A stretch of DNA of 64,000 nucleotides from positions 38,927,115 through 38,991,114 of the forward strand of contig NC_045138.2 in assembly GCF_008831285.2 (NCBI RefSeq), written 5' to 3'. Positions 27,924 through 56,822 of this stretch are shown here, one piece after another. The number at the start of each line of letters is the position of its first letter. Position 1 is the stretch's first letter. A program made the position numbers and the translations under genes. The notes beneath the pieces were generated by a model. It saw nothing but the letters and a program-made list of their open reading frames with translations, did no database searches and was not told the origin of the DNA. The stretch comes from Nymphaea colorata. Its lineage: Eukaryota > Streptophyta > Magnoliopsida > Nymphaeales > Nymphaeaceae.

Positions 27924-30900
27924 TCAATTTTTCTTGTGCCGGTGACAGAAAGATCTCAGTCTTGCAAGACCATCTTGCAGAAGTGGAGGATCTACAGCAA
28001 AGGTGATCCGAAGCCATCCCTTCATGCCCAGTGCACTACCTGCAAAACTTGCCTTTGTAACGAGGAAGACCATGTAACAATTACAGAACTAATTATCAAC
28101 TTTAACTATTACCTGGCAAGACAATTATAGATTCTTCTTTGGCCAATTTGCAGCAGAAATCCATATCATCCTTTATGTTCTTCAAACGAGAAGCATCTAG
28201 TCTCACCTGCCACAGAGAAAACGCTCTTCCTAATATGATATTGATTTACAATAAATAATAAATAAAGTTAAAGGAACTCTGCTTTACCATAACAAACATT
28301 GATGCTTCAGGCCTGTGTGGACAAGAAATGCAGTCAATTTGCAAGAGACTGTTGTAGCATATATCTGCTGTTAATTTCAACGTCTGGACCGTTTTGTTAA
28401 AGAAATCCTTGGTTGTTTCTCCAAGAATCTTTGGAATCGCTGCCTGGTAAATTGGATACTCGTCAGTCATTAGGAACTGTGAAAACTTAACCTCTAAAAG
28501 TGATACAGCCTGAGGAGATCATTTCATGTACCGGAAGGGGAACATGTCAGTGAGCCCCAAGAGCTGTGGAGCCCCAGCAATGGGGAGCTCCCGTATATTC
28601 ATGTCATTTCAGTACAAATGTGGCATAAAAGAAAAAACTAGCTCTCCATCTCAGTTAAGAAATTTGTGTTAACACCTTATCATTTTGGTCAACAAGAAAT
28701 GGCGTCTGAATGTGTAGAATTCATTATGGTCAAGAATTCTTATCTATCCTGGAATTGAATGGCAACAGCCGTTAAATTTACCAAAAATACCAGTACGGAA
28801 CAACATACAGATGTGCCAGTTCCTTTTCCCTCTAATGACTAAGTGAAATTGTATCTCCCCCCATTTTAATTAGTTCTTTCTAGCATTTTATGTGACCCTG
28901 TGGCAGACTTGTCTCTAATCACAAGAAATGTAAGGCCTACATATGTTCCTGCTCTCTTCCTACCATCAGATCAGCAGTACATAGAAGCACTGCAAGCACA
29001 TACACAGAGGGAAGAAAAAAGACAAAATCACATGTCTATATACATATACAGAAGTCATGGAATTCCAAATGAAACTAGCATTTTTTTGAGTTTACAACAT
29101 CTGAACCTCACCAGTGTTCAAGTGGTGGTTTCCAAATTTAAACTAAACGCTGAGGATGAAGTCCATGGAGTGTACAAAATTAACCATGATACCCTCATAT
29201 TTTATGAATGTTGAGAAGTGTCTTGCTGGTAATTTTACCATCTTTAACCATTACATTTATTTTGGAACCCTTTTCCTTGGACAGTGGTCTAGTGCTCTAC
29301 AAAAATAGTCACTTTGCATGTTTATGAATCTGAATAATTAAGTAATTTTGCCAAAAACTACCCCACAAAAGAGGTAAAGGACCCAAACAAGAACAAATGC
29401 ATATAGCAGATAATAACACATGCCAAAGATAAACCAGGACATGTGAACCGGAAGGAAATATCAGCAGGCAAACGAGGTACTTAACTATGATACATCTAAA
29501 ATCAGCTTCTAGCAGAATGACACATTGAAAAGAACGAATTCAACAAGAATTGTGGAGGCGAACATGCACACAAGAAAAGAGGATAAGCATGAGTTACAAA
29601 ACCTGAATTATAGTTGGTGGATCAGATGACACATTCAGGTAACTCCTTACACCATCAACAATCTGAAAGTAATGGAACATCCACAGTTAGTAGAAGGGAA
29701 AAATATCCTTGAAGATATTGGCACGTTATGCATTAATCAGAAAAATATCCTTGAAGACTTTGTTACTAAGGTCTACCTCTTGCACACCAACTAAGACTTT
29801 TGATTGCTTGGTCAATAAACACACTGAAAAGTGAGAGTCAAATGGACAAACAAATACTAACCTCAAAGAAAAGTTTATATACCACGGAAAGGTTCTTACT
29901 CTTTATCAAAGAAAATTACAGATCTGCAGTAAATAGTACAAAGGTGAAAGTTTTTCCACATATCGTAAATGTGGACCTTTGCTTCTTTTTTTTTGGGGTC
30001 AAAGAATCACATGTTTGGTCTATCATGTAGTACCAAACCCAGGCAAAAATCTTGACAGCTTAATGCGCAAGAAATATCAAGACATTTTGACATAACTTAA
30101 AGATGGAGAATGATTTTACATAAACCTTTGAGAGTTAAAGCCCAACAAAAGAAGCCTAGAGTAGCAAGGGCCCGTTCATGGGTTCAAAAGTTCAAACATC
30201 ATGATAGTTTCTAGAAACGGTTCTAAATTTTTGTCTTCGGTTAAGAAAAGGAAAAGTGACATTGTCCACAGAGAAGTTAGAACCCATTTTCTTGTGAGAT
30301 ACTGCAGGCCATTTCCTTTGATGACAGTCAATGTTGATCTTTCAAAAGCAGGTTCGTAGAGTAGTAGCTTTTTATTGGAAGTCGATTTGAAAGATCTACC
30401 TGTTAATGGACTCTGGTTTCGCAATGAATAAAGAAATAAGCAAAATACGTTAACGCCAACCTTGTTTTGCTTCAGAATGCCGTTGGGATCGCATGCCGCA
30501 AGCCATCCGAGTCTCCATCCAGGCACCACCCATCTCTTCGATATTGAACCCAATGTAATTACCGGAACTATAGAACTAAATGCTCCCATTGGAACGAAAG
30601 GCCTGCTTCCAAAGTTCAGATGAGCATACACTTCATCGGCGATCACAACAATGCCCAGCTTCCTCGCCACACCGGCAACCTAAAACCATGCACAATGGCA
30701 CCAGGACCCGAAAATGTTATCACAAGAAAACAGAGGTTTTCTCAAAGGGGTTGAATGAATTTACAGACCTTCTCCAAGTGCTCCCTAGAGAAGACATTGC
30801 CGCAAGGATTCACCGGATTAATGATAACCATGGCGACGGTGTTCTCGTCTGCGAGCGACTCGACGGCTTCGAGATCGATCTCCCAATGTTGGTCCGGAAG

Positions 30901-33251
30901 CAGGTCGAAGTGACGGCCTTCAAGGCCGCACAAGGTGGTTCTCGCTTCGTAGAGCGGGAAACCCGGCCTGGGGAGCAAGATGTTGGCACCTGGGCGGGAG
31001 AGGACGTGGAGGACGACCTCGATGGCCTGAGCGCATCCCACAGTGAGGAAGACATCGTCATGGGAAAGCTTGTAGGGGAGGTCTTTAGACAAGTACTCAG
31101 AAACTGCCCTGTAGATAGATAGAAGCAAGTTGAGAACAAAGAAGAAGAAGAAGAAGAAGTAAACGAGAAAAATAGAATTACACCGCACAGTAGGAAGACT
31201 GCAGAAATGGGAAAAGAGGAATTTTTCTAGACAAACAATAAAACCATCAAAAAGAAGGAATTGTCTGCTAAGAGACGAGCTTTTGGCGTCCAAACGGGAG
31301 AGCATTTAGAACAGGCATCAACATGAAAAGAGACAAGCAGTGGAAGACAACGAGGCGCAGACTTATGGCCACGTTGAGGGGCTCAGAGAAGACAACCAAC
31401 GTCCATGGCGACGAGACTCGGGCCCATATCCTTCCTACTCGCTTTCTTTTCTCAAAAGGAGAAAGGGGAAAAAAATAACAAGAAGAATCTTGGCCACGTC
31501 TCCGTGACCACCATTCTCAAGTTTTACGAATAAACGAAGTTCGAGGAGACGGAGAAGCTTATGGGCAACTGTGAACGAGCGCTGAGGCTCGTCCTCGCTC
31601 AACCCCGTGAGGCCACAACCCGACCTTCTAGCGCAGAGAGTAAGCCTCTGCTCGGGGAGTAAGAATTGAACTTCGTCGACCGCGTCTTCCGCGACGGTCG
31701 CCGTCTTGAATGACTCGAACGCCGAGGGATCGCCGTGGAGCAGGGGGGATCACGGGCCGTTCATCGGTCTTCTTCAGGTTAGAGAGTAAGACTTCAAGCA
31801 CTGCTTTGATGCCCTTCTGGTTCGCCAACGAGAGATTCTCGTTGGGCTTGAACCTTCATAGCTTATCCTCCATTTCCTCCTCCCCGTTCAACACCTCCCC
31901 AGAACAAGTTTTGGCATTCTTCACCTTCTTCCTCTCCTCTATGACTTCTCTTTGTTCTTAGTTGCTCAATAGAGTAAAGGTTAGAGAGAAAGAAAGAGGA
32001 AAAGAGCGAGAGAGAGTGAGGAGGTAGTTGTGAGAGACAGAGGTTGGTCGTAAGGTAACTGTACAAGAGGTACGATGAACTTTTGAAATGCTTCACAAAA
32101 ATTTTAACTGCACAACTGAGGCCCATATTTCGAAATACACTCTCAAATAAGTTTGTTCTATGCGTAGGTAGATTTTCATCGACGGGTCGACGCTCTATAC
32201 TTTCTCAAATGTCATAAACTGCAAATGATTTAATGCAGCATAAAAAAACAACTGCAACTGAGAATGTATTTCCAGGTTTTCGAATATGATAACTCCACTC
32301 ATGTCGGAGCGGTTTAGAATAAAAACACATAATTGAGTTCGCCATCAGTCTCAGTCAAGTGGCCGGCAGCCGGCCGGCGAGTGGGTTTGTTGAACACTAC
32401 AAAATTTGCTATACTAGAATTTTTCCCGTTTGAGGAGGCAAAGGAATCTGGATGTCACGTATAACGTGATAACTGCAGTCATGCAAGACAAATTTGGGTC
32501 TACTTTTCAAAAAGGCACATGTTCTAGCCATCTTTGGATCATGGGCAGCTGGAAAATCGACTCCAAAAGTGTTATTTTGGAAACTTTACGTGGAAACAAA
32601 GGTAACAATGGGAAAACTTTAGTGCCCATTTGGCGAAAGCCTAGTGATTCACTTAAAGGCTTCGGTCAGTTGTTACGGATAGCACAACTTCTGGACGTCA
32701 TAAAATAAGATCAAAGGACATCGCATTCAAATCGCATTGATGCACTCGCAAGAAATGGGTAAAGTCTTCCATAGACTCTGGAATTTCGAGTTCCCCCGCT
32801 GAACGACAGTAAATGCTTAGTCGGTGATGGTCGTAGTTTTCTGACTCAAGAAATTATGGTAGTCTGGTTATACTTTCAGAGAGAGGAGAAGAAGAAGAAG
32901 AAGAATGTAAACGGAAGTGTAGACCGAGTACAGTACAGACCTTCTAGCGGCAGGGAGGCCGATGCTGGGCGGGTACCTGTTGAACTTCCCGGACCTTATG
33001 GACTCGACGACGGCATCTTCAGCCGTGGACGTCGTCCTGAACGACTCGAACGCGGAAGGGTCGCCGTGGCCGAGCTGGATGACGACCCTCCCGTCCTCCC
33101 CGTTGAGGTTAGAACCCACTATATCCAGCACGCCTCTGATGCTCTGCTGGTTCACCGCCGCGAGCCTCTCGTTGGGCTTGAACCGCCATCGCCTCCCCTC
33201 CGCTTCTCCCTTCCCGTTCGCCACTACAAGCCCGCCGCCACCATTCTCCAT
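27924..33251 (-). CDS. TAT: Tyrosine/nicotianamine aminotransferase-family protein
   Basis: A class I/II PLP aminotransferase, transferring an amino group from tyrosine or a related substrate to a 2-oxo acid. Exons on the minus strand: 32941-33251, 30769-31108, 30461-30679, 29603-29662, 28288-28443, 28113-28206, 27924-28039; 431 aa, the usual size. ATG at 33251 opens MENGGGG; the core starts [15 protein letters not shown]. Motifs include [87 protein letters not shown] (Asp232, Tyr235) and GSISKRW (PLP lysine Lys265). The C-terminus has [13 protein letters not shown]. Usual family members have NPGNPCG or NPNNPCG where this has NPVNPCG. Intron 1 (31109-32940) contains a broken duplicate of exon 1. 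TAT, NAAT and SUR1-type C-S lyases share this architecture, so substrate is not assigned. No transit peptide was seen, so it is probably cytosolic. Confidence 0.94.
31139..31160. repeat. (GAA)n microsatellite
   Basis: A short GAA run (TTC on the gene strand) next to the acceptor of aminotransferase exon 2; it probably forms part of the polypyrimidine tract. Confidence 0.7.
31625..31873 (-). pseudogene. Broken duplicate of aminotransferase exon 1
   Basis: The minus strand contains the phrase FKPNE followed by a diverged peptide ([18 protein letters not shown]) and, in another frame, [12 protein letters not shown] with VAEDAV, all matching exon 1 of the host gene in the same order and orientation. 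The counterpart of the start codon lies at 31873, but the frame hits TGA after five codons (MEDKL), and a frameshift separates the two conserved halves. The exon end 'ctagaag' and a following GT donor are kept. It lies inside intron 1, about 1.3 kb downstream of the true exon 1. Confidence 0.85.
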
Positions 33252-37726: not shown

Positions 37727-40700
37727 ATGGCGTCGGCTCCTCCCCTCCACTCCCGCCACCTCCCCCTCCTTCTCCCGACCCCTTTCCCTCCTTCCCTCGT
37801 CGCCGTCGTCTCCCTCCCCGCTCATCATCGTTCGCCGGCGTCGACCCCGCCTCTGATTTCGTGCCGGACATGTCGCTCCCTCGCCGCTGCACGCCGTCTG
37901 CCCCGATCGTCCGCGCAGAGCGACCGGGCCTTGTCTGCCGAGAGCGTCGTCGTCGACAACGACTCATCGCCGGCCTACACCGCCCTCGTTGTCGCCACCG
38001 CTAACAGAATCGGCCTCCTCCAGGTCATCACCCGCGTCTTCACCGTCTTCGGGTTGAAGATTGAGAAGGCCAGCGTCGAGGAGATCCAGGGCGACTTTGT
38101 CGTGAAGCGGTTCTGCGTGACAGACGGCGACGGAAAGAAGATCGAGGATCCGAAGAACTTGGACAGGATCGTCAAGGCGCTCCGGGAGGCCGTTGAGAAA
38201 GAGCCGGCGAGGGTGGCCGGGCCGTCGGCCTCGTCTGGTTCTACGACTAGGCGCCCGCCGCAGATCCTGAAGAGTAATTTGGATGGAGCGAAGGTGCCGA
38301 GGGCTGAATTGATGTTCGGGATGATGGATCGTTACCTCAAGAACGATCCGATCAGCATTCAGAAGGACATTCTTAATCACGTGGAGTATACGATAGCGAG
38401 GTCGAGGTTCAGCTTCAACGATTTTGAAGCCTATCAGGTGCCATTTCCCATGTTATCTGATCCTCCCATCTCCTAACGATCAACGTAGTTTTTGCTTCAT
38501 TCATTTTATCCAATCACATTGCTATTATTAGCCTCACGTTACACCTAGCCTGGTCTGTAGCTTCCGTTGAACTCACCAAACAAATGCAATATTGTTTTCT
38601 TTATTTAAACGTTCAAAGATTTTGTAGGCCTTGGCACATAGTGTGAGAGACAGGCTTATCGAGCGTTGGCATGATACTCAGCAATACTTCAAGAGGAACG
38701 ATCCAAAGCGCGTGTACTTCCTGTCTTTAGAATTCCTTATGGGTATGGTATTGATAAACATCCTCCTATGGGAACTTAAGTTGTTGCGAGCTTTTCCTTT
38801 GCATCCATGTGTTGTATTGTGGCTAAAGTTATCAAGAAGAATGGTCCGTTTGAAAAAAAAAACGATCAAGAAGCGTGCTCGTAATGGTACCTCGCAGTCT
38901 TGGGCCGAATCGCCTCTGACATTTCATCCAATTCAGTTACTGATGTTGACAATAAATGTACTAAGCAATTTGACATTCGGCTAAGAGGCGTCTTTGTTTG
39001 TTCTGCATCTGCTAAGAGGCTTCTTCTGCAGCTATTGTTGAAATTGTAGAATATGTTTAAATAGGTGCTATTGCTCTTAGATTAGGAACATCAAATTCGT
39101 CTCGCTTGTTTAGCTGCACTTGATGTCATGGACCAAAGGTCACATTCTTTGACGGAACAATCCGGATGGTTCTCAGTGCAAAACATTTTCACCATCCGAG
39201 CGTGGTTGCTGACAGAATGGTACTGCTGAGTTCCTTATGCGTATTTTTAGTTGATCCAACTCTAATCCCAGCTGTATCGGCTTGTCCAAAGAAGAAACAA
39301 CTTAACAATTATTAGCTTTGCTTAAACGAAGGTGATCCAGCTACCTTCCAGTGTGCCTATCATTGTGACCTGTCCTTAAAAGGATTTATTATTATCCTCA
39401 CTTAGTGGGTAACAGGACATGAACTCGGACCATCAATATCCTCGTTTGTTATGATTGGACGCTGCTATGTTGAAGCTGAGTGGCTGATCAGCTGAGTACC
39501 GTGGGGCCTCTTTTTGTAAGCAAGAAAACAGATTAGTCCTAGATTTAGGACAACTCTAGTCCATTGCTGCTCTCCACTAACCACAAGGTAGCAGCACCGT
39601 TATCAGTCCTCCACGTTAGGGATTTACTTGCACTCTTTTTGTTGCTCTAGGACATTTGATTTTTTGAGCGATGTTTTCATTTGTAATATGTGATTGTTTC
39701 TATAGTGTGTCTCATGTATTTGCCATATTTTTTTCTATATATCTATCTCTCTATATATGTATGAATATGTGCATGTTTCGATGGCAGAAATAGGTACAAA
39801 GCCTCAACCACATTGAGCGTACCATTGAAATTTGACGCCTGTATATCTATAAAATGGAGCATGCAAACTTCAAACTGGAAATAAAAAAGACATTGTAATC
39901 ATGTCTAAGCTTACCTACTTTGGTGCTTAGATTCTCGCATTCAGAGGATCCAGCATATTTCTTAGGAATTTGCCGTTTTCTAATCATTACTCTCCACAAT
40001 TATTGGCATGGAATCATGAATGAATGCGGTTTGTCCAGTGTCAAGCATAGTACATTTCCTCTGCTTGCTGGCTCTGGCAGTCAATTCTAGAAAACTAAAC
40101 GAGGTAGAATATTCTACTAATGACTATTGTTTGTGAAATAATTGGGGCTTATCTGGATTCTTTACTTTTAGTTTAGATTGTGGTTCAAGAAATGTCTTTA
40201 TGCCACATTGTTCCCTTGTGAGACATTTATGAGTTTATTCTGTGAGATGTTCAGGTCGCTCCTTGTCAAACAGTCTCACAAATTTGGGAATAAGAGATCA
40301 ATATGCAGAGGCAGTAAGTCAACTAGGATTTGACTTTGAAGTATTAGTGGAGAAGGTATGAGCTTTTCATCTCTTCGTTGTAAAAAGCCTTTGGTATATT
40401 GATCTACATAACATGTCCTTACTGAAACTGTGTTAATACAATTGTAAACATTTTGGTTGTCACAGTAGATTCATGCCTATCTGTTAATAAGTCCTACGGT
40501 CATAATCACAACTGAAAGTGTCACTGATTAGTTTATACTGAAGAGTGGAGAAACACTATTAACACTTAAAATTCATTTGAAAAGTTGATGAGGTGTCACC
40601 AGACTTCAAGTCTAATTTGCTATCTTTGTTTGAGTTTTTGCCAAATACACTTCTATGTTTATTAGCATAGACAAATATGCCTCTTCTTTACTAGTCTTCC

Positions 40701-43700
40701 TGAAAACACCCTTATCTTTTCTAATTTTAGTACATAATAGACTTTTTCTGGCCATGAAGAATGCAATCAACTTTGTTACACTGCCCTAAAGGTGCAGCAA
40801 ACTATAATGTTGTGACATCATGATATTTGAAAATATTTTGGTTCAGTCTCTATTTAGTTATTCTTTTTCTTTCAGAGATGATATCACAGACTTGTGACAA
40901 TGAATACATTGAAGTAAACTCTACTTCAAATTTTGAAGTGGCTGTGCTACGTATCATAGTTCTTGTGTTTTCATTTCTAATGTTCGTGGAAGCAGACACC
41001 ATCAAATTTCTTATCTGAGAAGCATCACATTATGAGCTTATGTATTTAGAAGTTTGCACTGCCTATGAAGAAAGTACTTTTGTTTTTGTTGTATGGGCTA
41101 TGACATCATACATGGTTTCCAATTATTAATTTTCCTGTGCTGAAAACAGGAGGGTGATGCTGCGCTTGGTAATGGGGGCTTAGCTCGTCTTTCAGCATGT
41201 TTAATGGATTCCTTAGCAACATTGGACCTTCCAGCTTGGGGGTATGCCATTAATTTTGTTCAGAAAGTAATAACCAATGTACAAGCAGTTTGCAGAGTCC
41301 TTTATTTATCTCTTTGTCATGTTAAGTTCTGATTACATTTTAAAGCATGTTGGTTGTCTGAAATAAAACAAGTTGGCTCTGCTTGAGCTTCACTAGAGAT
41401 TATTTGCTGTGAACTTTGGTTGAGTGCCCTCATTTGCACAAACAAGTTGAGCTTGAGCAAAATTACAAGATTGTTTATCTAACTCAGCAAGCCTGAACAC
41501 CCTAGGCCAGGTTGATTGCATTGATGTGCAGACTGCAGGCTTAGTCCTATCCTTCTAGAACCAGTCCACTTCAAGTTATAATCTGTCCATTTGGTCCTGG
41601 CCTGTGACATGTAAATCTTTCTAGAGAATAACTACTAACAATCTAACATCCCCCGTGTTTCTTCAGGGCTAACTAGTTCTGAGTCTTCTGAGAAACACTA
41701 CGATCTGGAAAATTCATTCCCTAATAACAGTTGTAAGGATAGAAGCATCTGGGTGAAAGGGTGTTTCACATTATGGGACAACAATTGCTATTATCTTCTG
41801 CATTCTCATTTGCACCTGGCTTTTGTGGTCTGGTCCCTATTCATTTGCTGTTTTCTTGTGATAGCTTCAAGATTTTTCTAATAGAAAGTTGAGACATGAA
41901 GAGAATCAAAGTGGAAGATGTTTTCCTTTTTTGAGATAAATGGACTTGTTTATGGTAGACATCTTACATTCCACTCAGTTGCTGTACGACTTGTTTGGAA
42001 CTAGTGGGCAGTTAAGGTGATGCTAAATCTAATGTTCTGTTGCTGCTAAAAGTTAAAAACAGGTATCTAACTTCGTTTGAGCTTTATCCAAATAAGCGAC
42101 AATGGATCTTGGAGGATATTGCTGAATCTACTGTTATGTGTAAAAAATGTGGGTACAAAGACAAACATGGTTTTCACATGCATTAAGTTTGAATATCTGC
42201 TCATCCGAGAGGATATTAAAAGCATAAAGAAGTCCAATTTCCATAGAACGAAAGATAGCAATGAAAGATGAAGCTATATCTTTAGCTTATTTGCATAAAA
42301 CATAAATCTTGTCTCACTACCGTAACAGGTAGTGGAAACATTCAAAATTGTGATATGTTCCTGTTAATTCTTCACTAGGACTTATTTCTAAAGTTTTTGG
42401 CAGATTTTCGTCATTTAACATCAGTAGATTATGGGTTCCTGAGGATGTTTTAGTTTATTATAGATTTTGAAGGATTCTGACCACATATGATGTCAATTTC
42501 CTTTAATTTTGCAGTTATGGCTTGCGCTATCAATATGGTTTGTTCCGTCAGCAGATATTGGATGGTTATCAGCATGAACAACCTGATTTTTGGCTGAATT
42601 TTGGGAACCCTTGGGAGATAGAGCGTATTCATATCTCATACCCAGTTAAGGTGCGTGAACAAATGTAGCTGATTTAGTTATTTATAACTAGTTTCAATGC
42701 ATGACAAAGTTTCCAAACTGCATGTTTGTCCTGATTCAGTTTCGTGATTTAGTATTATGGGAAAGTGGAGGAGCAGCTTTTGAATGGGAGGAAGTCTAAA
42801 GTCTGGATACCTGAAGAGACGGTAAGCATAAAACTTTGGGTTTATGCTGTTTTACAAACTGCTTGTTTTCTTCTATTGACTATATTTTCCAAAATAAATA
42901 AATTCATGAAGATCATGTATCTAGTATTTTGCAATCTAATGTTTTTGCCTCTGATAGGTGGAAGCTGTTGCCTATGACAATCCTATTCCAGGTTATGGAA
43001 CAAAGAATACGATCAATCTTCGCCTTTGGGCTGCTAAACCAAGTGGCCAGTATGATATGGTGAGTGGATGCATGTTTTGGAGGATTAACTAGCATGCATG
43101 TTACCCTTGCAATGATTTTTCTTTCTGTGCTTTTATGTGAGGTTAAGCCTGTTTAGGAACATAAAAAGTTAAAAACATATTTGTGCCCTTGAATGGGTTC
43201 TCTCTCTCCTTCTCCCTCTATGTTTGTGTGTGCATGTTGTGTGTCTCCACTGAATTTTATTCTTCTTTTCCTCTTTTATCTTCATGTTGTTTGTCCACGA
43301 TTTTAGGCATGAGTGACACTAAAGTAGCAAAATATGGTCTCTAGGTTCAGAGCAACCATAACTTTTTAGTGGACTGAGCCTGAGCAGTTCTTGCTAGCCA
43401 ATATGTCACATTCCATCAGAAGAACTGATGAAGGCTGGCTTTGCTACAGCTTGGATTTATTACTGCTATAACTGTACAATTTTAGAGTTCTTTTGGAAGA
43501 AGAGTTATGATTTCCTTGTTCGTGATCCCTTTCCTAAGGTTTTTTTTTTCTTTTTCAATGAAAAGACAGAGTCTTTCCTCCAGGTAAATGCAGCTAACTT
43601 GAAATAGTTGTCTTCACAAGCTAGTACAGAGATAGTGTTGATGGGCGATGGGTCCAAGGTATGGCTGGTTGGCAAGATGCCTGCTGACATATTCCCAGTA

Positions 43701-46700
43701 ACTGTGATGGTCCCAGATTAACTGTGATGGTCATCTTCTAGAAAGGAAGACTATGGTCCTGCTGGAAGGGTTACTTTAAGAAGAAAGTGGCTGATAAAAT
43801 CATGAATCTCACTAGTTGGAAGGAGCTTTCTCATGGTGTTTCAGATGGGTTTCTTGTTATCGTTAATAACTATATAAAATGATTAAATCAAGCAGGACCA
43901 GTCAAGAATTTTTGATGAAATTTGAATGGTGATCCTTGAAAGCATCCAAAGGGCCTTCTTGTGTGGCCTACAAGCAGACAAAGAGGCTTGTTAGCCATAC
44001 ATAATGCAGAATCTGACATGGCCAAAGAATGTGATTAGATAGGACTAGGAAATGCCACCAAGGAGATAGATTCTCATACTGCAACTACCATCCAACTGTG
44101 AGGGGATTGTGGATTGAGTTGCATTACCACAGCAAGGGCTGTTTGCTTGCGAGTTATAGAAAGCAGGGTAAGAAACGCAGTGAAATCCTCCCTGCGTTAT
44201 GGTACATTGGGAGGAGAAATTTTTCATGTGAAGAAGAGAGACCTAGAGTTGGAATTGATTGTCAAGGTCAGAATACTAGACAAGAAGAATTGTCATTATT
44301 AAGCACCAATTATTCACTTTTAGTGAGAAGATAGTGTAAGCATTGAGGTGCATTTATGTGTGCAAACAAAGACCACTTCAAGTCAATTGTGTGGTATGTT
44401 CCATAAAGGTGAACAAAGATAGCAAGAAGAGAAGTCGTCGGAGAGTATTGCTGCAATACAAGTTTACCAAGGGCACCATGCTAGAAAGAAGAATTATGAT
44501 CATTAAGCACCAACCGATTGCATATAGTAAGAAGATGGTATTAGAAAAGTGAATCAATATGATAGAGTGGGCTGCCACCATTGGGTACAGAGCCTGTTGT
44601 CTCATTGTTGATCTGCCTTCTTTATGTGAGTTCCACTCTTTTGTCTATTGATGGCAGCCAGAGAAAAATATTTCTGTAAAGACACTTTAGATTTCCTAAA
44701 CAATCTTCTATCAATGAACATGGCGATACACAAGATGTAATTTTCTTCCCATCTGTGTTGCCTGTTTGTGGCTTATATTTTTCTCTAATTGTTGATAGCC
44801 TTTGTCGCCTGCTTCTGGTTCCTTTTCTTATTATGTTTTGCAGATTCAAAAGCTCTGATAACCTTTTTTTAAGGATTAGCTGATTGAACTCTAAATTTTC
44901 TTTGTTTATAATGCAGCAAGTTGGTAATTCATAGTTTCATTAAGGTGTATATTTATTTTTTCTGGGGTCTTGTCACTTAGTTGCTTTTTGTATTTTCAAA
45001 TTTGTATGTTGACATAGTTGATTTTGTCCCTCTAATCATGTTGAAGTTCTTTGCCTAATAGCGTGTTTGTGCTTTGATTTTGTCTCTCTAATCATGTTGA
45101 AGCTCTTTGCCTACTAGCATGTTTGTGCTATAATGCTTCTTTGTATGTGCTAGGAATCATTTAACACTGGTGATTATATCAATTCTATCATCAATGGGCA
45201 AAAGGCTGAAACTATAAGCAACGTTCTCTATCCGGATGATCGTACTTATCAGGTTTGTAGTGATCTCGAATTCAGAAAATTATTATTTTGTGTTGGAAAC
45301 TTAATAGCTAATTTGATGTACATATACTCTGGGCACCACCAGAAAATCAAATGAACAAATATCCCACATGTGTGGAGCAGTGATGGAACAGAACATAACA
45401 TTTGTTTTAGAAATGACTTTAACATAACATTACTTTTGTTTCATCTAGTGATTGAAATCCTTTGGTGTCATTGACACATTTTTGAAGGTGTTATAAGGAT
45501 AAGCAAGCAACATTAAACCATCATGTGGTGGAAGCATCTGAATGAAAACTAATCAGCAAAATTACAGCATCCTGTTACATGTGAAGAGAGTACTCAAACC
45601 CGCACTATATAGTAAAAATAAAACTATGTGCTAGTGAAAATTTTATCTGTTTTTTCCTTGTCTTGGTGATTTTTCTCCTCTAATCTTTTAGGATCTACAG
45701 ACATCTTCATTGTAATTGTGTTTGACGTTTGAACTATGTTATTTGCAAAATTCATGATCTTCCTCTTCTTGTCTTTCAGGGGAAGGAACTCAGGCTGAAA
45801 CAACAATATTTCTTTGTGTCAGCATCCTTGCAAGACATAGTAAGGAGGTTTAAGGATTCACATACTGATTTTGATGTGTTCCCTGATAAGGTTGCTTCCT
45901 AAATTCCTCTGCTGCATAATTCCTTTTGGATAGCAAGCTTTTGAATTCAGTTACTTTATGGGTATTGGTTTCATTTCCATTTCTTGGAATGACATGATCC
46001 ATATGTGTTTCTTTTGTTTGCTATGACTGAACTGATTGATGCTTTACAGTCAGCATGATTTCCTTTGAGGCTTTAATCAGTAAAATCAATATTTCCTTGC
46101 AGGTAGCTTTGCAGCTTAATGACACCCACCCTTCTCTTTCAGTGGTTGAGCTAATGAGAATCTTGGTTGATGAGGAACATTTGGACTGGAAACATGCTTG
46201 GAAAATTGTCTGCAAAGTATTTTCGATTACAATTCATACTGTGGTAGCTGAAGGACTTGAGAAAGTTCCAGTTGACCTAATGGGCAGCCTTCTTCCACGT
46301 CACTTGGAAGTATGTTGCAAAAGTTTGAATTTTACTAAAGTATAATTTTCAGTTCCATTAGAATTTGATTTTTACTATATCTAGTAGCATATTTTGGTAC
46401 AATCTTCATCTAGTGCAAGTCACAATAAGTTCACTAAGACATTAGCCTAGTATATCTCCAGTCGCTTTATTATGTTCGAAGCTGAAAATGAGATGTTTAT
46501 TGTAATAAACATTTCTATGACTAATTTTGGTCTGCATCAGACTAGCATGCTTTTGTTCCTTTTGAAACAAAAGGAATTTTATTCCAGGTGCCTTGATGTT
46601 TTCTTGATTTCATGCAGATCATATATGAAATAAACTTTTACTTTTTGGAGGATCTGAAGCAGAGATATGGATCTGATTTTGATCGTCTGTCTCGAATGTC

Positions 46701-49700
46701 AATTTTAGAGGAAGGAGCTGCGAAGGTATTCTTGAGATCATTTATAGGATGCAATATTTCATGTGTTATTTTACAGCTGCTTGAGGCTTGCAAACTGCCT
46801 GAAAGGATCTTGACTGAATTAGCTAATTTTACTTTTTCTCTTCCTGTTGAAGTTTACATTGTTCTCATCTTACACTTTTGTTCACGTGTTGGAAGATGTG
46901 AGCTTGTTCAGTTTACATGTTGATGATCTCTTTTCTGATGTCGTTCACAACTCTACTCTTTTTCTGTTTTTCTTTCCTGCTTATCATCTTCAATAAATAG
47001 ACTCAACTATTAGAAAAGGTAAAGCTTACCAGATTGTCAGATTGTCCAATAGTCTTGATATATTGAAAAAATCCTCAATCTTATCAATAGAATGAGTATT
47101 CACAACATCCTTCGGTGAGAAACTGCATCTATGCACACTTGCACAGCAATTTTCCTCAATTTCTGCAGTGGTATGAGCAATTGTAGTAATTAAAGAAGAT
47201 TGCTTATTCCCACAGCAACAAGTTCTACAGAGATCAGTCAACTAATCATTAACACACTGATCTAAGACTCCACCAGAGGAACATTTAATTCTGCCAAATT
47301 GGAAAGTTGGAACGCGCACACAGAGCCAAGCTCTGACACCATGCAAACAAAAAAGAATGTCTCACGAACAACTCAATCTTGCACACATGTGGACAGAAAA
47401 ATATTTCATTAACAATATCTCTAAACTCAAGGAGCTACAGGGAGTTTTACAATAAACAGAAAAGTGAGAGGGCTGTTGAGTCTCCATTGGATATAAATCT
47501 AGCTGTCAGAGAGTCCAGCTGCTACCTCTCTTCGACTGAGTTTTTTCAGCTGGACAAAAAAGATAGAATTACAAGAAAGAAAGAATAAAATACATAAAAA
47601 TAAGAAAGAAAATAGAAATACGAGAAGAAAAAAATACACAAAATACACACAGAAATACAAGAAAGTTACAATAATATCAAGTAGTTACTGAAATACCTAG
47701 AAATGTGGCTTGTTGAACCTTACATTCTGGAATGCAGTTGTAGCCCAAATGGATAAAACTGTGTTTATACTTAGCAATGCTTGGTAAGATGCTGACAAAG
47801 AAGCAAATATGAAATATCCTATTGCATCATGGAAGTAAAATTGTCAGACTCCACCATTGTAAGTGAAAAAAAAAAGACCTGGCTAGAGGTATGAGTTGAA
47901 ATAAATAATCACTATTGACCAGGTACAAGATCTTGTGTAGGTTATGGTCCTGTTCTGGAGAGTGCAACAAAGAAAACTGTATGAGGATATACATGCCAAA
48001 TGGCCCAAATCACTAACATATGCATGTGCAAAAAATGCAGGATTGTGCTGCATCTCATGAAATGCTTTGGATGCCAATCTCATGGTTGTTTCCAGTTATT
48101 TAAGACAGAGGCTAAAGCATGTCCAAGTATGTCGCTACCAAAAATTGACTAATAATAGACGTTTTCTATATTGAGCTTGAACCTAGGATGATAAAACGGG
48201 TTGAACTAAGCCTGAAATGTAGATGACCATTCATGATAACTAGGTATACCTAGTGGTCTGACTTATGTAAGTGTAGCTTTATTCTTTTCAGTGTCACAAA
48301 TATTGTGATGCTTTGAAAAATATTGTTATATTGATAAAAAATGAAAAGAAACTTGAAAAAATTCTGTTTTTGGAAAAATAACGTTAAAATAAATTTATTG
48401 CATTTTTACATTTTTTTCACGACTTTTCCTTTTTTTGTTTCTTTCTTTTTAACGTTAATATCATCAGAAAATTCAAATTTAAACTTAAGCTAGATTACTT
48501 ACCATCATTAAAACATTATTTTGAATTTTATCACTTTATCTACTATGTCTGTGTCTTCTTACTAGTTTCTCATTTATTTTGTTTTTACATATTTTTTAGG
48601 AAATTTTGTCGTTTTCAAAAAATTTGCTGAGGTTTTCTGGAGATTTTTCCAAGAAAAACAAATTTGCCAAAAATTACCCAAGGAAAATTTTGCCACTAAA
48701 ACATGCTAACTATATTTGGAACAATGATTCTTTCATACTTATAGAATGGACTCGCATGTAAGCTAATGGAAATAAAGAAAGCAAATTGTTGCAGCAGAAT
48801 GCTTGCTTTGTAAAACCAGTTCAAGACTTTGAGGAATAATCTTTCTCTGAGAAAATGATTTGAACAAGGTAATTAATTCTGATCCATTACACACACACAC
48901 ATATAAGCATGTATTGCCATAGAATCTCTATAGAATTGCTTGAGGTGGTCTTATTTGCTACACTTTCTCTAGTGAAGTTTAGGTGGCACACTTCCAGTGA
49001 ACTATGTATTTTCTTTTCTATGTTGAAATGGTTTCTTACTTCCTATGTTTCTTTCATTTTATTGAAGAATGTCCGCATGGCGAACCTAGCGATTGTTTGC
49101 TGTAATACAGTAAATGCAGTCTCCCAGGTTCACTCAAAGTTACTAAAAGGTGGTGCACTCAAGGTAAACTTGAAGTCGCTGTTGCTAGTTAAGGATTTTA
49201 TTGTTATGGTGGGAAAATGTTCACCTTTGAGTCATATATGGCTCTTCCCATGTTAACAAATAGGAGAGCAATTTGTGGGACATTTTGCCCAGCGAATGCA
49301 TGCGAGAATTTACTTTTGTATTTGCATTTTTGTCTGACTAGTTAGACGTGATTTGGACTTCTTCGTCACTCAGATTCATGAGAAGCTTCCAAGAGATTCT
49401 CATGGTCTCTGGGAGCAGTCATCAACCAATAGATGCTTATCTCACTAATTCATTTACCTACCTTTTTTGTGTTCTTTTTCTTATTTTTTGAACTGCAGGA
49501 CTTTCATCAGCTTTGGCCTCAGAAAATTCAATATAAGACAAATGGAGTTACTCAGGTATATAGAGTTCTAATGCAAGATATTATAGGATATGTGAAACAG
49601 ACAACAGGACCTTAGGCTTTTGATTCAAGGCATCTATTAATGAGAGGTAGGCAGAACTGGAATGGTGATAGATATAAGTTATTGGAACGTAGTTGCCCGT

Positions 49701-50348
49701 GTATATGTACATACGTACAAATAGAACAAGTAAAATGGCTTTTGAGAGTGAATTTGTCTCTCCATAGTTCAGGTGTGCAATCATAGGAATGGTCTCTATT
49801 CTTTAGTACCTTGAGCTCTAGTAGGCTATTAGGCTCGTTCTAAGTTCTGATAACTATGCACAGAATGTTGACACTATAGAACACTGAGATAAATTTGATT
49901 GCCTAGCACTGCAGTTCACAAGACTTAGTAATTATACTATTATAGCATGTTTGTCATTGTTTATATTACCTTAAATAAGATTGAGCTTATACTTTATACT
50001 AAATTTTTCAGAGGCGGTGGATAGTAGTAAGTAACCCTGGTCTGTGCAATCTTATTACAAAATCACTTGGAACAGACACTTGGATTAGCAATATTGATCT
50101 TCTCATGGGGCTACGCCAACATGCAGAGGACACTAATCTTCAGAACGAATGGAAAATGGTAATATTTTATTAGAAGATTTTGAATCATTTGGTGTCTATT
50201 CTATATGTTCCTGTAACCCTATGAGGCATGTTCAACTTTGCAGGTTCGGAAGCTCAATAAAATAAGGCTGGCAGAGTATATCGAAACAATAACTGGGTTG
50301 AAGGTTGTTTGCTTTCCTCCTCCTCCTCCTCCTCCTCCTCCTCCTCCT

Positions 50349-50391
<43 letters not shown>

Positions 50392-50902
50392 CCTCTCCCT
50401 CTCTCTCTCCCCCCATTCCATGCGCCCCCAGCCCGCCCACACAACCCCCCCCCAAAAAAACCCGTGTTTCTGGAGCTCATAGTTTATTCTCCTCTCTCTA
50501 AAAACAGTTGATTTTATTTTTTACAGGTCAGCGTTGATGCAATGTTTGATGTACAGGCCAAAAGGATTCATGAGTACAAGAGACAATTGCTTAATGTCCT
50601 TGGGATTATCTATCGCTATGACTGTATCAAGGTTATTTCATATTTACAGTTTTATATTATCTTGGTTGTAGTGCCAATTTAACTCGTATGATGATGCATG
50701 TTATTGGTCCATAAATAATTCAAACTTCAGACCGTCTGATCTAACTAATCAATATCGATACTGGACAAGAATAATTTATTTATGCAATACTTGGGCTTGC
50801 CCACTTAAGCACCTGGATCCTTCAGGCCCTGGCCTTCTTTGCTCACTGTCTGATTGCTTTAATGGTTATACCAGGATCCTGCAGACTGTATTCAAATGTG
50901 TA

Positions 50903-50947
<45 letters not shown>

Positions 50948-51737
50948 ACATGAGTGCGGGGTGCGGGTGCCAGAGCGGCACATCCCAAAAAATTTAGGTG
51001 CGGCGGTGCAGTGAGGGTATTTTATTATTATTAATTTATTATATATATAACAGAATAAGCATGTATATATTATTATTGCAATTTAATTATTAATGTATAT
51101 AACATACTTGCATAATTGTATTGCATAGGAAAATATCAAAACAACATATATTATATATAATATATTATATGTAGTAATCTACTAATATGACATACTAACA
51201 GTCTAAGGTAAAACATAAAAAATTGATAGAATCATAGAAGCAGAAATTGAAAATTTGAAATTAAAACTTCAAAGAACAACTCTAACCACAGCTGGTAGGC
51301 TGCATAATGCATATATAAAAAAACTTATATTATAATATTATAAGTTTATAACATGACAATATATCACTATATCAGTTGCAAAGCATATATGCACGGCTGC
51401 ATATGTACACGACTGACAATATATATTTATTAGTTGAACTTTGAAATTTTTATAGTAGATTCAAGAACAACTGAACAAGCATCTAAAATAAAATGCTAAA
51501 ATGTATTCAACAATAATACTAAAAAATGGGACACATTTATACCAAACGTGGGTTGACCACACCCGACTCGAATTTGACGCAAGTCTGTCCATGTCAGAAA
51601 TGGACAAATATAGTCTAGTGCAGCTGACCGCATCCGACTCGCGTTGACTAGGCTCGAGTGCGAGATGCACCCATGTCCGGTGCACACCTGACTCGACGCG
51701 ACTCGGGTGCGGCAGTAAAATAGAAGAGTTTGTGTGA

Positions 51738-51792
<55 letters not shown>

Positions 51793-54700
51793 TTATTATT
51801 ATTGTTATTGTTTTCATTTTTTCCTGAGATTCAACCAAATGGATGTGGGCTATTGGGTTGTTTAAACTTTTAGTCGAGAACAACTTTCAAATAACTGGGA
51901 TCCAACTTGTATCAAGTTGTTTATGCATCAAATCTCGTTGGCTTGAAAAACAAGTTTGTTTGGTAAAACAAATATAGGTTTTCGACCCTGCTGAACAAAT
52001 TCAGCTTTCAAAGTTCTAACAGACTGGATGAACTAGAAGACAAGATAAATTAGGGCATCATGTGTATATGTATGTACGTTCATATGTAGATAAGTATGTA
52101 TACATGTATATATGTATGTGTGAAATGTGCAGCACTGGTCAGTTGTTTCTGACTTTGTCCCACCAGAATGCTTTGGGCCAGCATCAAGTATGGGCATTAG
52201 GAAACCTGATCAATCAGATGCATATTAATCAGATTTGAGTTTTGGACTTAAATAGAAATTTACCAAAACTGAAGCTGCATTCTACCTGCCACCCAATTTA
52301 TGTCTATTGAATTTCAATTCCTTAAAGAAAGATAAAGTAACTCTATTCAGCTTCATGTCCAATTTGGACATGGTAATCCTCCTAGCGCATGATGTGAGGC
52401 CTTCCAGTGTGAGTGTTACTCTTTTCAAAATTGACTATACATGTTTTTTTGGTACACGGAATCCAATTGGATATTGGATAAAAATAAAAATTGAGTTCAA
52501 ACTTGATCAAGATTAACCAATTCCAGCTTGCCTATACTTAGATTCTCTTTTTCTTACCAAATCAAACTAATCCAAATCCAGTTGGTCGAATAAAATAAAC
52601 CATGCTCAAGTTGGTATCCTCCTTCCTACTCTCCGATATTATATGCTTTGTGCTTTTCTGTTATTGGTTGCCTCTTCAACCTTTTTTCATATCAAAAGAT
52701 GATGGTGAATCGGTGATCATGGCAGTAGAACATTGAATGCAGTTCCTCAAAAACATTGGGAAGAATATGTAATTTTCTGATGAACTTCTCTGTCCACAAA
52801 TTGTGTATCCATATAGTAATCTAATATACCACAGTTGAGCTTTTTGTACAAAAATTATAGGAATTTGATTTCAGGAGTCTATTTAATCTATTTTGCAGAA
52901 TATGAAAGCAGATGATAAAAGGAAGGTTGTTCCCCGTGTATGCATCATTGGAGGAAAGGCAGCTCCAGGTTACGAAATGGCCAAGAAGATAATTAAGCTC
53001 ATCCATGCTGTTGCAGAAAAAATTAATAATGACGATGACATCGGTGATCTTCTTAAACTGGTTTGTCCAAAACAATTCATAGTCGAATCATCCTTTATAA
53101 TTTCTTAGCTGAAGACGTTCTTGCATATTCATACACCAGTGTATACATGATATGTATTATGTACACATGTACTGCAAGAGGGATGTTCCATACTTTAACC
53201 TGCAGGACTTTTCAAGGAAACCAATTGGGACTAAAAACTAATGGTCTTGTAGTTTTTGTGAATGATGCTGATGCTCTGATTGAAAATGACTTGAAAATTA
53301 TAAAAGTGGGAGCTTCGTGCAAGTAATCTTGGTCTCTCCTATCAGAAAAGTTGAAGCAAATTTATGACCTTGAAAAGTTAAATTACAACTAGCGCTAATG
53401 GAACTGATGAAAAGAAGCTTTTGTCTTCTGGACCTCGCATTCTGACTCTTTCTGTGACATCTAGGTTGGTGTAAATATGTAGAATTGTCATTCATGCATG
53501 GTTGTGGTAATAGCTGTTTCAATGGTGTTAAGATCACTGCTGCTGAAACCGTGGTGCCATGTGCCATTTTTATTCTTTCTGATACTTTTAAAATGTTTTC
53601 TTATTTAAAAAAAAATTACCTTTTGATTTTCAACTATACAAATTCAATTATTAACATTTTGCCGGTTCAGGAACTATTCTGAAGCCGGTACAAATTGGCT
53701 AATTTGTTGAATTGTCCTGCCCCCATTTGGAAGTTGATTCTGATAAGATTGGTTTTAACTGTAAGTCCACACTTAAGTTTGACTCCACCTGAAATATGGA
53801 AACCAAGGTCCCATCAAGCCATTATCATGGTGGTAATTGGTGAAGTTTCTGTAGGAGCAGATGCAGTACAGAACATCGTTATTATAAAGGAGGAATTTTA
53901 TGAGAACCAAGTCTTGAAAAAGGCTGTGTATCTTGAATATATCAAAATTTTCACTAACAGTACGTGCACTTAGTAATTACACCCTTCAACAAAATTCACA
54001 TACTATTTGGTTTGAACATGGATTCTGGAAGCTTATTATTCAAAACCTCATAAAGGAGAATCCAGATAGGTCTGCATGCTTTTTCCATTCAATTTGACAT
54101 CAGGAAGTGGTCACAATTATTTTAAGATTTTAGGGGCTGTCTAGCTGTTCAACGTAGTATTATAACCCATTTCATATTGCTCAAACTTAGCATGTAACTA
54201 CTTTTGCAAGGTTTGTTGTATGACAGACCAGAAATTCAGAATGAATTGGCTTTGATTTTTTTAATCATCTGAAAAATCTAAATAACAAAGAATAAAAGTT
54301 TTACTATTCGAATTGGGTGATAACTGATAAACTACGAGTGGCAATTTTTGTTACTGTCTGTTTCATTCCTTTGGTTTTAACTTTTACCTCCCAACTTGCA
54401 CGTAACTATTTTTTTTCCTTAAATGTAGTCTTCATTATGCTCATAATTTTGTCTATTTTGCAGGTTTTCGTCCCAGATTATAATGTTTCTGTAGCTGAAG
54501 TAGTGATACCTGGAAGTGACCTTTCACAGCATATAAGGTCATGTCGAGCTCTCTTCAGTGTCCTTTGCCTCAGTAGTTTTCATATATCCTTGTTACAAAA
54601 AATTGTCATAATCTTGTTACAAAAAATTGTCATAATTGCTGTAGATTCAAGAAAATAATTGGAAGAAAGTGCTTATAAATAGATATCTACTATAACTTTA

Positions 54701-56549
54701 GGACTCTATTTTCAAAACGAACTATGGAAAAAATACTTATTTGCGACTATCCAGGAGATGTACATGCTTTCGGTCATGTCAACACTCATTCTTTCCTATC
54801 CACAAGGTCTTTATGCATCTGGTAAGGTGTGAGTCGTGACTTGTGAATCTCACCAAATTGAGATGTCGTATATTTATTTCTGAGTTTATGATTGTGAGTT
54901 GTGCTTTTGAAGATACATACTATGATACTAATCAATATATGATTTGTAATGTTATCAATATGTCCAGTGTTTGTGCTTGAAAAATCTACAGCAGAGCAGC
55001 TGATTTGTTAAAAACTAGGTTTCTCTGTTTCATTTTATTATTTTCTAAAGTTACTGCCTTTTTGCTTCTTCTGTATTAAGTTATTAACTATAAGATATTG
55101 TGCACGTGTTCCCTCATTTTTTATAAAACCTACTATTCTTTGAGCAAAAGCCTAGTTCTTGAGATGTATCCAAGTTGTTCTCACAGAAAGCAAAGCCTCT
55201 TCATTTTTTCCTAGTGTCTTTGTGCATATATGGAGGATTTCTCTTTAGCTTTTGCCTATTGAAAAGGGTTGTTTTTTATTTTCTACAGATAATTATTTTT
55301 TAGACATCCTTCGAACATTGCAACTTGTGATTCTCTTGGATTCCTGTTGGAAGTATTCTATATGGTCCTTGAGTTACATTTGTCTGATTTTTTTCTTTAT
55401 TTTTGATAGCACGGCAGGGCACGAAGCATCAGGAACCAGCAGTATGAAATTTTTGATGAATGGATGTCTACTTTTAGCAACAGCTGATGGGTCAACGTGT
55501 GAAATTATTGAAGAGATAGGGGAAGATAACATGGTCAGTATTGTGGCATATCTCCAGATAATTCTTTAGTTCGGTGTCTTTTGTACGGAAATGGACGTAA
55601 TACATTTTTCTTTTTCTTATATACTTTCTTAAAAACTTCCATACGAGGAAGATGTTAAGCAGCAGGTAAACTAGGAAGGGATGACTCTTAGGAAAGTGCA
55701 ACCCACACCATGTTCATTATTTTACAAGATTCCATAGAATTTTTCATGTTATCTGCATCATATGCTTGAGCAAGCTCTATTGCCGAAGTAGATTCCTGAT
55801 GCATGCTTGGTACTCGTGAGTTCCATAGCCAATCATTTGTTACTGCTGCAGTTTGTATTTGGTGCCAAAGTTAACGAAGTCCCTTCTCTGAGAGAGAAGA
55901 GGCGTGATCTTCAAGTACCTCTCCAATTCGTGCGTGTGGTTAGGTTTGTATATCACCTTCTCTGTCTGCCTTTGAACCTTTTGCTCTTTTAGAATGAGTG
56001 TCATATCTCGATAAATATTTAAGAGTTTTGATCTTTTGTTATCCCGTGTGGTTGGTAGGATGGTCAGAGATGGTTATTTTGGCCATAAGGACTATTTCAA
56101 GTCATTATGCGATAGTGTGGATGACATTGGTGGTGATTTCTATCTTCTTGGGTACGACTTTATGAGTTATCTGGAAGCACAGGTAGATTCCTACTATTTC
56201 TTTTGAATATGTGTGCTATATGACTAGATTGTTAAAAGTTGTCATTTGTGCTTGCATGTTCTTCAATGTCCGTGTGTGGGAACATCCATGGATAATGCAT
56301 GTACTTCCACACATCCTTACAAGTGTGCATGAGCATGGTTTAATGTGTTTTCTATTTTTGGGTTATTGAAGTTGCCTGAATGATAAATTTTCACAGGCTG
56401 CTGCTGATAAGGCATTTGTTGATCAAGACAAGTGGACAAAGATGAGTATCTTGAGCACCGCTGGATCTGGTAAATTCAGCAGCGACAGAACTGTTGCAGA
56501 ATATAGAGATAAGATATGGAAGGTTCAGCCTTGCAGGTTACCTTTTTGA
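37727..56549 (+). CDS. ACT domain-containing alpha-glucan phosphorylase (GT35), probably plastidial
   Basis: Glucan phosphorylase reversibly releases glucose 1-phosphate from alpha-1,4-glucans using PLP. Exons: 37727-38437, 38628-38742, 40255-40355, 41150-41241, 42515-42650, 42753-42821, 42958-43059, 45154-45252, 45780-45890, 46103-46309, 46618-46725, 49068-49163, 49499-49555, 50012-50158, 50244-50303, 50527-50631, 52899-53060, 54464-54537, 55410-55533, 55852-55943, 56059-56182, 56397-56549; 1014 aa. Residues 1-70 are Ser/Pro/Arg-rich with almost no acid residues, like a transit peptide. An ACT domain spans about 84-158 ([34 protein letters not shown]). A short linker follows, then the core from about residue 195. 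Kept residues: KRIHEYKRQ (Lys749, Arg750, Lys755), PLP Lys864 in GTSSMKF, and His557. Changed: the usual YTNHT reads ITIHT, GNGGLGRL reads [16 protein letters not shown] reads NGVTQRRW. The PHO1 insertion is absent. Confidence 0.9.
43690..44000 (+). mobile_element. Possible LINE reverse-transcriptase remnant in phosphorylase intron 7
   Basis: One frame reads [19 protein letters not shown] and, after a stop and frame change, [10 protein letters not shown]. These resemble the thumb region that follows the reverse transcriptase in plant LINEs (K..W..LS and a later E..QR.FLWG). It is short and broken. Intron 7 is one of the longest of the gene (about 2.1 kb). Confidence 0.3.
47030..47670 (-). mobile_element. 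Antisense Copia-type LTR fragment in phosphorylase intron 11
   Basis: The minus strand at 47330-47341 reads TGGTGTCAGAGC, one change from the initiator-tRNA-Met primer-binding site usual in Copia elements. It directly follows sequence ending TTTGCA, so the 5' LTR would run from about 47670 (TGTAAC...) down to 47342 (...GCA), with TG/CA ends. About 300 bp of internal sequence continues to about 47030, with only a short frame. The far LTR and the coding region are missing. Confidence 0.5.
50316..50418 (+). repeat. (CCT)n-(CT)n microsatellite in phosphorylase intron 15
   Basis: A run of CCT units passes into about 20 CT units, then C-rich sequence. This nearly pure polypyrimidine tract fills much of a 223-bp intron, ahead of the exon 16 acceptor. 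Confidence 0.9.
50906..50944. repeat. (TA)n microsatellite beside TIR element copy 2
   Basis: About 19 TA units directly left of the transposon end. Confidence 0.9.
50944..51739 (+). mobile_element. Non-autonomous TIR DNA transposon, copy 2 (796 bp) in phosphorylase intron 16
   Basis: Begins TGTTACATGAGTGCGGGG and ends ...TGTGTGACT, flanked by TA on both sides. Its first roughly 100 bp (gtgcggggtgcgggtgcc, catcccaaaaaatttaggtg) and its last roughly 150 bp align with the minus strand of 6376-7419, as does a middle block (aaacaacatatattatata, aatatgacatacta). Terminal repeats are worn compared with copy 1. No transposase frame. Confidence 0.6.
51740..51789. repeat. (TA)25 microsatellite beside TIR element copy 2
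   Basis: Directly right of the element. With the left TA run, this suggests insertion into a TA tract or growth of the target duplication. Confidence 0.9.
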
Positions 56550-56633: not shown

Positions 56634-56639
56634 AATAAA
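56634..56639 (+). promoter_or_regulatory. Poly(A) signal AATAAA of the phosphorylase gene
   Basis: Canonical hexamer about 85 bp after the stop codon. Confidence 0.45.
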
Positions 56640-56660
56640 ACAACTCTTGACTTCTGAAGG

Positions 56661-56822
56661 GTTGGGGCTGTTCGAGTTGCCAATTTAAGTCTTGAAGTGT
56701 TAATAAGTGCTGGTGTTGGTGGCGCTCTGCCCACCAGTAGGGTTGGGGCGGTTCGAGTTGCCAATTTAGGTCTTGAAGTGTTAATAAGTACTGGTGTTGT
56801 TGGCACTCTGCCCAACAGTCTA
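56661..56822. repeat. Two tandem 81-bp units after the phosphorylase gene
   Basis: 'gttggggctgttcgagttgc' at 56661 recurs at 56742 with few differences through 'aataagt.ctggtgttg' and 'ctctgccca.cagt'. It may lie in the 3' UTR. The minus-strand frame across it is only a by-product of the repeat. Confidence 0.85.

Follow-up and report, generated by a model that had tools for sequence, protein, structure and literature searches.

The locus at 37727-56549 (+ strand) of the window, meaning the whole 64,000-nt stretch of Nymphaea colorata DNA analysed here, raises the question of whether an ACT domain is truly fused in frame to a plant alpha-glucan phosphorylase and, if it is, whether such a protein is new and what it may do.

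Gene structure and genomic context

The gene was modelled as 22 exons, positioned by eye with homology and splice signals as guides, and their joining gives 1014 residues with no internal stops, the same length as the translation in an earlier note on this DNA. All 21 introns have GT-AG borders. That note had described a 711-bp, GC-rich first exon, as is indeed found for exon 1 (37727-38437; GC 61%, GC3 78%), the frame of which is open from 37727 through its whole length. It specifies a transit-like leader (about residues 1-70), the ACT domain (37943-38215, residues 73-163), a linker, and the first residues homologous to GT35 phosphorylases (206-237). Exon 2 (38628-38742) carries the GT35 core on in phase, again as previously proposed, and the homology to AtPHS2 is ungapped across the exon 1-2 junction. 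The remaining exons, all on the + strand, lie at 40255-40355 (exon 3), 41150-41241 (exon 4, which has GGLARL where others read GGLGRL), 42515-42650 (exon 5), 42753-42821 (exon 6), 42958-43059 (exon 7), 45154-45252 (exon 8), 45780-45890 (exon 9), 46103-46309 (exon 10, in which NDTHP is retained and YTNHTVLPEALEKW, the form found in AtPHS2 and HvPho1, is altered), 46618-46725 (exon 11), 49068-49163 (exon 12), 49499-49555 (exon 13), 50012-50158 (exon 14), 50244-50303 (exon 15), 50527-50631 (exon 16, retaining KRIHEYKRQ), 52899-53060 (exon 17), 54464-54537 (exon 18), 55410-55533 (exon 19, with Lys 864, which we take to be the PLP lysine, and a motif altered to DGSTCE), 55852-55943 (exon 20), 56059-56182 (exon 21) and 56397-56549 (exon 22, ending at the stop codon, with an AATAAA at 56634). 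For exon 6, an upstream acceptor AG at 42738-42739 was rejected, as it leads to stops in frame; the acceptor 13 bases downstream (42751-42752) restores and preserves the frame. A strong compositional gradient runs from the 5' end, GC3 falling from 78% in exon 1 to 39% over the remaining CDS, with a GC content of 38% for the window as a whole. Just 3' of the stop codon and the first AATAAA, at 56658-56819, an 81-bp unit occurs as two tandem copies that are 93% identical.

Elsewhere in the window, two frames at 3557-5774 (+) match PF21895, the SAM-binding regulatory domain of the MTHFR C-terminus (E 6.8e-10 and 8e-42), and this is likely to be a plant methylenetetrahydrofolate reductase gene. 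Two frames at 30179-31305 (-) match PF00155, aminotransferase class I/II (E 3.5e-10 and 1.5e-17), and are likely to represent an aminotransferase gene, the 5' part of which may, as judged by eye, reach about 33293, where the frame scanned had no Pfam match. Altogether, ten further open reading frames were scanned across the window, four with a Pfam match and six with none. Scans of the 64,000 nt for Rfam families and for tRNAs each returned 0 hits.

The ACT domain and its fusion to a phosphorylase

The earlier note had placed an ACT domain at about residues 84-158, and a domain search now gives a Pfam match at residues 73-163. The model is PF24931 (ACT_ACR9_3rd). Exon 1 by itself scores 31.9 bits (E 1.4e-7), and the full-length protein 29.3 bits, which exceeds the cut-off of 27 by 2.3 bits. 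Within residues 55-163 there are also hits to five GlnD models of NCBIfam, the best at E 6.1e-12; all five score well short of the cut-offs set for whole proteins because only the C-terminal ACT region is held in common. Taken together with the ACR9-like PF24931 match, these indicate that the resemblance to GlnD/ACR proteins, first noticed by eye, was right. Within exon 1 the general ACT_4 model falls short of its cut-off (15.5 against 27 bits), as does the model of an unrelated adhesin at 13.5 bits. The first loop of the domain reads NRIGLL, presumably a loop motif of the DRxGLL type, with its Gly at residue 96. A conserved Gly is described in the first loop of GlnD and ACR ACT domains (PMC3173338). 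The C-terminal ACT region of GlnD and the domains of plant ACR9-ACR12 are of the same sequence type as the present one, but in GlnD and ACR proteins the ACT domain is repeated, and ACR proteins have no enzyme domain while GlnD has a different one (PMC3173338).

A search by sequence for ACT relatives in the PDB gave none that were credible (8 matches, E 0.19 or worse). A single-sequence structure model of residues 70-166 was of modest confidence (mean pLDDT 65, pTM 0.58) and showed the order strand-helix-strand-strand-helix, with the last strand missing. Its top Foldseek match was the ACT domain of Rel (E 0.014, TM 0.52 by query), and ACT or ACT-like appeared in the titles of 8 of the 30 best rows, the others including unrelated folds such as CutA and BamC; none of the 1180 Foldseek matches reached E 0.001. 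The ACT assignment is secure by sequence, and the predicted structure is no more than consistent with it.

The phosphorylase domain (GT35, PF00343) spans residues 297-1007 with 973.7 bits, above the curated cut-off, and homology to AtPHS2 begins earlier, at residue 206, which is within exon 1. As one exon holds both the ACT domain and the initial 32 residues homologous to GT35, no splice junction is needed for the fusion, which is very unlikely to have arisen by accident from a wrong splice call. At the level of the genomic sequence, an in-frame ACT-phosphorylase fusion can be regarded as confirmed.

Comparison with PHO3, PhoB and other phosphorylases

The fusion is not new: it is on record in the PHO3 of Lotus and of Jatropha and in the PhoB of Chlamydomonas (PMC5005325). 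Qin et al. (2016), who credit the first report of PHO3 to Wu et al. (2015), describe it as a plastidic starch phosphorylase that contains an ACT domain and lacks the L78 insert, present in Jatropha and some dicots, regard it as the ortholog of Chlamydomonas PhoB/STA4, and think that it has been lost in some plant lineages (PMC5005325). A third isoform named PHO3 also appears in PMC7569903. Views of PhoB differ between sources, as it has been likened to the cytosolic class (PMC4919380), and a 2025 review treats it as the Chlamydomonas Pho1 and not as a third type (PMC12267944). From these descriptions, LjPHO3 (Lj6g3v2006830) has in common with the present protein an N-terminal ACT domain, a phosphorylase domain and the lack of an L78 insert, its plastid-targeting leader would correspond to the transit-like leader predicted here, and the Jatropha protein has the same arrangement of ACT and phosphorylase domains; for the Lotus PHO genes taken together the number of exons is given as 15-20, compared to 22 coding exons here (PMC5005325). 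PhoB (STA4) of Chlamydomonas reinhardtii, a green alga, is likewise described as plastidial, as is predicted here, and as having an ACT domain (PMC5005325); it has no sequence insertion, as in the window protein, and a low affinity for malto-oligosaccharides (PMC4919380). This likeness is drawn from description.

Several features of the window protein agree with the PHO3/PhoB type. The ACT domain lies N-terminal to GT35 in a single chain, and the GT35 catalytic domain (PF00343) carries Lys 864, presumably binding PLP, within its conserved motif. The plastidic PHO1/PHS1 and the cytosolic PHO2/PHS2 have the GT35 core in common with it, and PHO1 has the L78 insert. The insert is missing from the window protein: AtPHS2 aligns in a single stretch whereas HvPho1 aligns in two, leaving its residues 430-523 unmatched, and the barley insert, expected near the end of exon 11, is absent there. 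A PHO1 enzyme would carry the insert, and a PHO2 enzyme would have no plastid leader or extra N-terminal domain, while here 205 residues, including the ACT domain, precede the match to AtPHS2 (which starts at residue 58 of the AtPHS2 chain). The match to HvPho1 starts only at residue 207 of the window protein, and that to AtPHS2 at 206. The earlier note was right in setting PHO1 and PHO2 apart as differently arranged. As judged by composition only, the leader is consistent with plastid targeting, the first 64 residues having no acidic residues, 7 Arg/Lys and 13 Ser/Thr, and a plastid location is accordingly a prediction.

In a tree of 12 sequences, in which PHO1 and PHO2 are represented by one protein each, the AtPHS2 and HvPho1 pair is supported at 100/100 with the window protein outside it, a position expected of the PHO3/PhoB type; the window protein joins this pair at 88/91, under the mark for strong support. 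Its identity is 52% to yeast glycogen phosphorylase, 51% to HvPho1 and 49% to AtPHS2, compared to 64% between AtPHS2 and HvPho1. No PHO3/PhoB sequence was found in the collections searched (prokaryote genomes, viral contigs and plasmids); the viral contig scan gave no match to the window protein, and the genome contig scan gave three loci, all titled cyanobacteria, one of which (L003), a 61-residue fragment, was excluded from all counts. Among eight bacterial phosphorylases, a small, hand-picked set rather than a survey, none had an ACT match at a Pfam E of 0.1 or better, and seven of these are informative for the fusion since one (L002) is without its N-terminal part. Three literature leads were set aside: the PHO3 of a barley paper, the gene number of which places it near barley PHO2 and gives no indication of the ACT type; the pho3 of a cassava paper, which is an Arabidopsis sucrose-transporter mutant; and the ACT protein of a sweet potato paper, which is ACR11.

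Altogether, the gene is probably the PHO3 of N. colorata. Its product would be an alpha-glucan phosphorylase of PHO3/PhoB descent, putatively targeted to plastids, that carries an ACT domain at its N-terminus and lacks the L78 insert. Some points tell against this reading, among them the small margin of the ACT score, the lack of activity of purified LjPHO3, the unchanged starch of rice overexpressing it, the departures at invariant GT35 columns described below, and the placing of PhoB with Pho1 in the 2025 review. Its orthology to the named PHO3s, with which it was compared through their published descriptions, is suggested by domain layout and tree position.

Active-site motifs

The window protein was aligned with eight bacterial and three eukaryotic phosphorylases (AtPHS2, HvPho1 and yeast). 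At 148 columns invariant in the 11 others it departs at 12 (residues 268, 321, 324, 554, 563, 567, 634, 668, 862, 874, 879 and 880), and when each of the 11 was left out in turn ten showed 0 to 6 departures and the Aureibacter protein (L007) showed 15; the count for the window protein is inflated by its having no close sister in the set, where several of the others have one. At 179 columns invariant in the eight bacteria, the departures number 25 for the window protein, 22 for AtPHS2, 20 for HvPho1 and 12 for yeast, so that by this measure it is not far from AtPHS2 and HvPho1; it is distinctive in that 12 of these 25 departures occur in no other protein of the set. Of the 12 departures among the 148 columns, ten fall in six motif windows, which together contain 59 of those columns (Fisher test, p 0.0035, a guide only, since these windows were chosen after the changes had been seen), and outside them 87 of 89 invariant columns are retained. 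The motifs are taken to be those of the active site, as in glycogen phosphorylase. The substitutions are GGLGR to GGLAR, YTNHT..EALEKW to ITIHT..EGLEKV, TNGxTPRR to TNGVTQRR, GTSNMK to GTSSMK, and DGANVE to DGSTCE, while the putative PLP lysine, the main conserved motifs and the His-Thr of the YTNHT motif are all retained. The 12 departures suggest altered catalysis, and could be relevant to the report that Lotus PHO3 is inactive once purified.

Alternative explanations

It is extremely improbable that the ACT exon is part of another gene lying upstream and is left unjoined to the phosphorylase in mature transcripts. Exon 1 does differ in composition (GC3 78% vs 39%), but one open frame within it holds both the ACT domain and the GT35-homologous residues 206-237, it closes in phase at a GT donor, and a phosphorylase with an N-terminal ACT domain has been described in Lotus, where the PHO genes were compared with cDNA (PMC5005325). 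The departures at invariant columns could also be read as signs of a decaying PHO3 pseudogene, yet 1014 stop-free codons across 22 exons with GT-AG splice sites, and the 87 of 89 invariant columns kept outside the motif windows, make this very unlikely.

A likelier reading, although it is still on the unlikely side, is that the gene is a PHO3 with a drifted active site, and that its product is a weak or inactive catalyst which, gated by its ACT domain, would scaffold or regulate the complexes that synthesise starch and would not be a working phosphorylase. Departures at 12 of 148 invariant columns, compared to 0 to 6 for ten of the other proteins (15 for L007), and the concentration of 10 of these in motif windows chosen post hoc, are in keeping with this, as are the lack of activity of purified recombinant LjPHO3 and the speculation of Dauvillee et al., as relayed by Qin et al., that the role of PhoB is an indirect one, as part of a multienzyme complex (PMC5005325). 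On the other hand, crude extract with full-length LjPHO3 showed phosphorolysis on average 2.5-fold above the plasmid control, and phosphorolysis activity was also raised in leaves overexpressing it (PMC5005325). The window protein, for its part, keeps the His-Thr of YTNHT, the core motifs and the lysine that presumably holds PLP; the lack of a close sister inflates its count, and 25 departures in 179 columns is little above the 22 of AtPHS2 and the 20 of HvPho1.

Possible function and significance

As a PHO3 the enzyme would most likely reside in the chloroplast and act on starch-derived glucans, releasing glucose 1-phosphate by PLP-dependent phosphorolysis, a catalysis predicted from its sequence. 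LjPHO3 is chloroplastic and its overexpression cuts leaf starch by about 30%; when it was overexpressed in rice, starch was not significantly changed (the authors' data not shown), which Qin et al. took to mean that further factors are needed (PMC5005325). Amino-acid regulation of PhoB has already been suggested by the same authors (PMC5005325), and direct ligand control of the phosphorylase is plausible. The ACT domain would most likely bind an amino acid, for which glutamine would be a first guess, and the ligand-bound domain would turn the activity or the assembly of the enzyme up or down; both ligand and direction are suggested here from related systems. Control of this kind would link starch turnover to nitrogen status. 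The proposed link draws on the view that GlnD ACT domains bind glutamine (PMC3173338), on the phenotype of PhoB loss in Chlamydomonas being confined to nitrogen starvation (PMC4919380), and on purified LjPHO3 being inactive although crude extracts and overexpressing leaves have raised activity; the lack of a significant starch change in rice speaks against it. It could be speculated further, very tentatively and against the balance of probability, that PHO3 is a ligand-gated or moonlighting phosphorylase, with a remodelled substrate site around an intact PLP/phosphate core, that uses starch or another glucan only when an amino acid is on the ACT domain, which would explain both the inactivity of purified LjPHO3 and a PhoB loss that is visible only under nitrogen starvation.

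As the fusion is already on record, the N. colorata locus adds one more gene to this type. The weight of the finding is modest: PHO3 has been little studied, and one functional plant study was found in the open literature searched. The clustering of its active-site departures is nevertheless a concrete reason to question whether PHO3 is a normal phosphorylase, and PHO3 could tie nitrogen status to starch.
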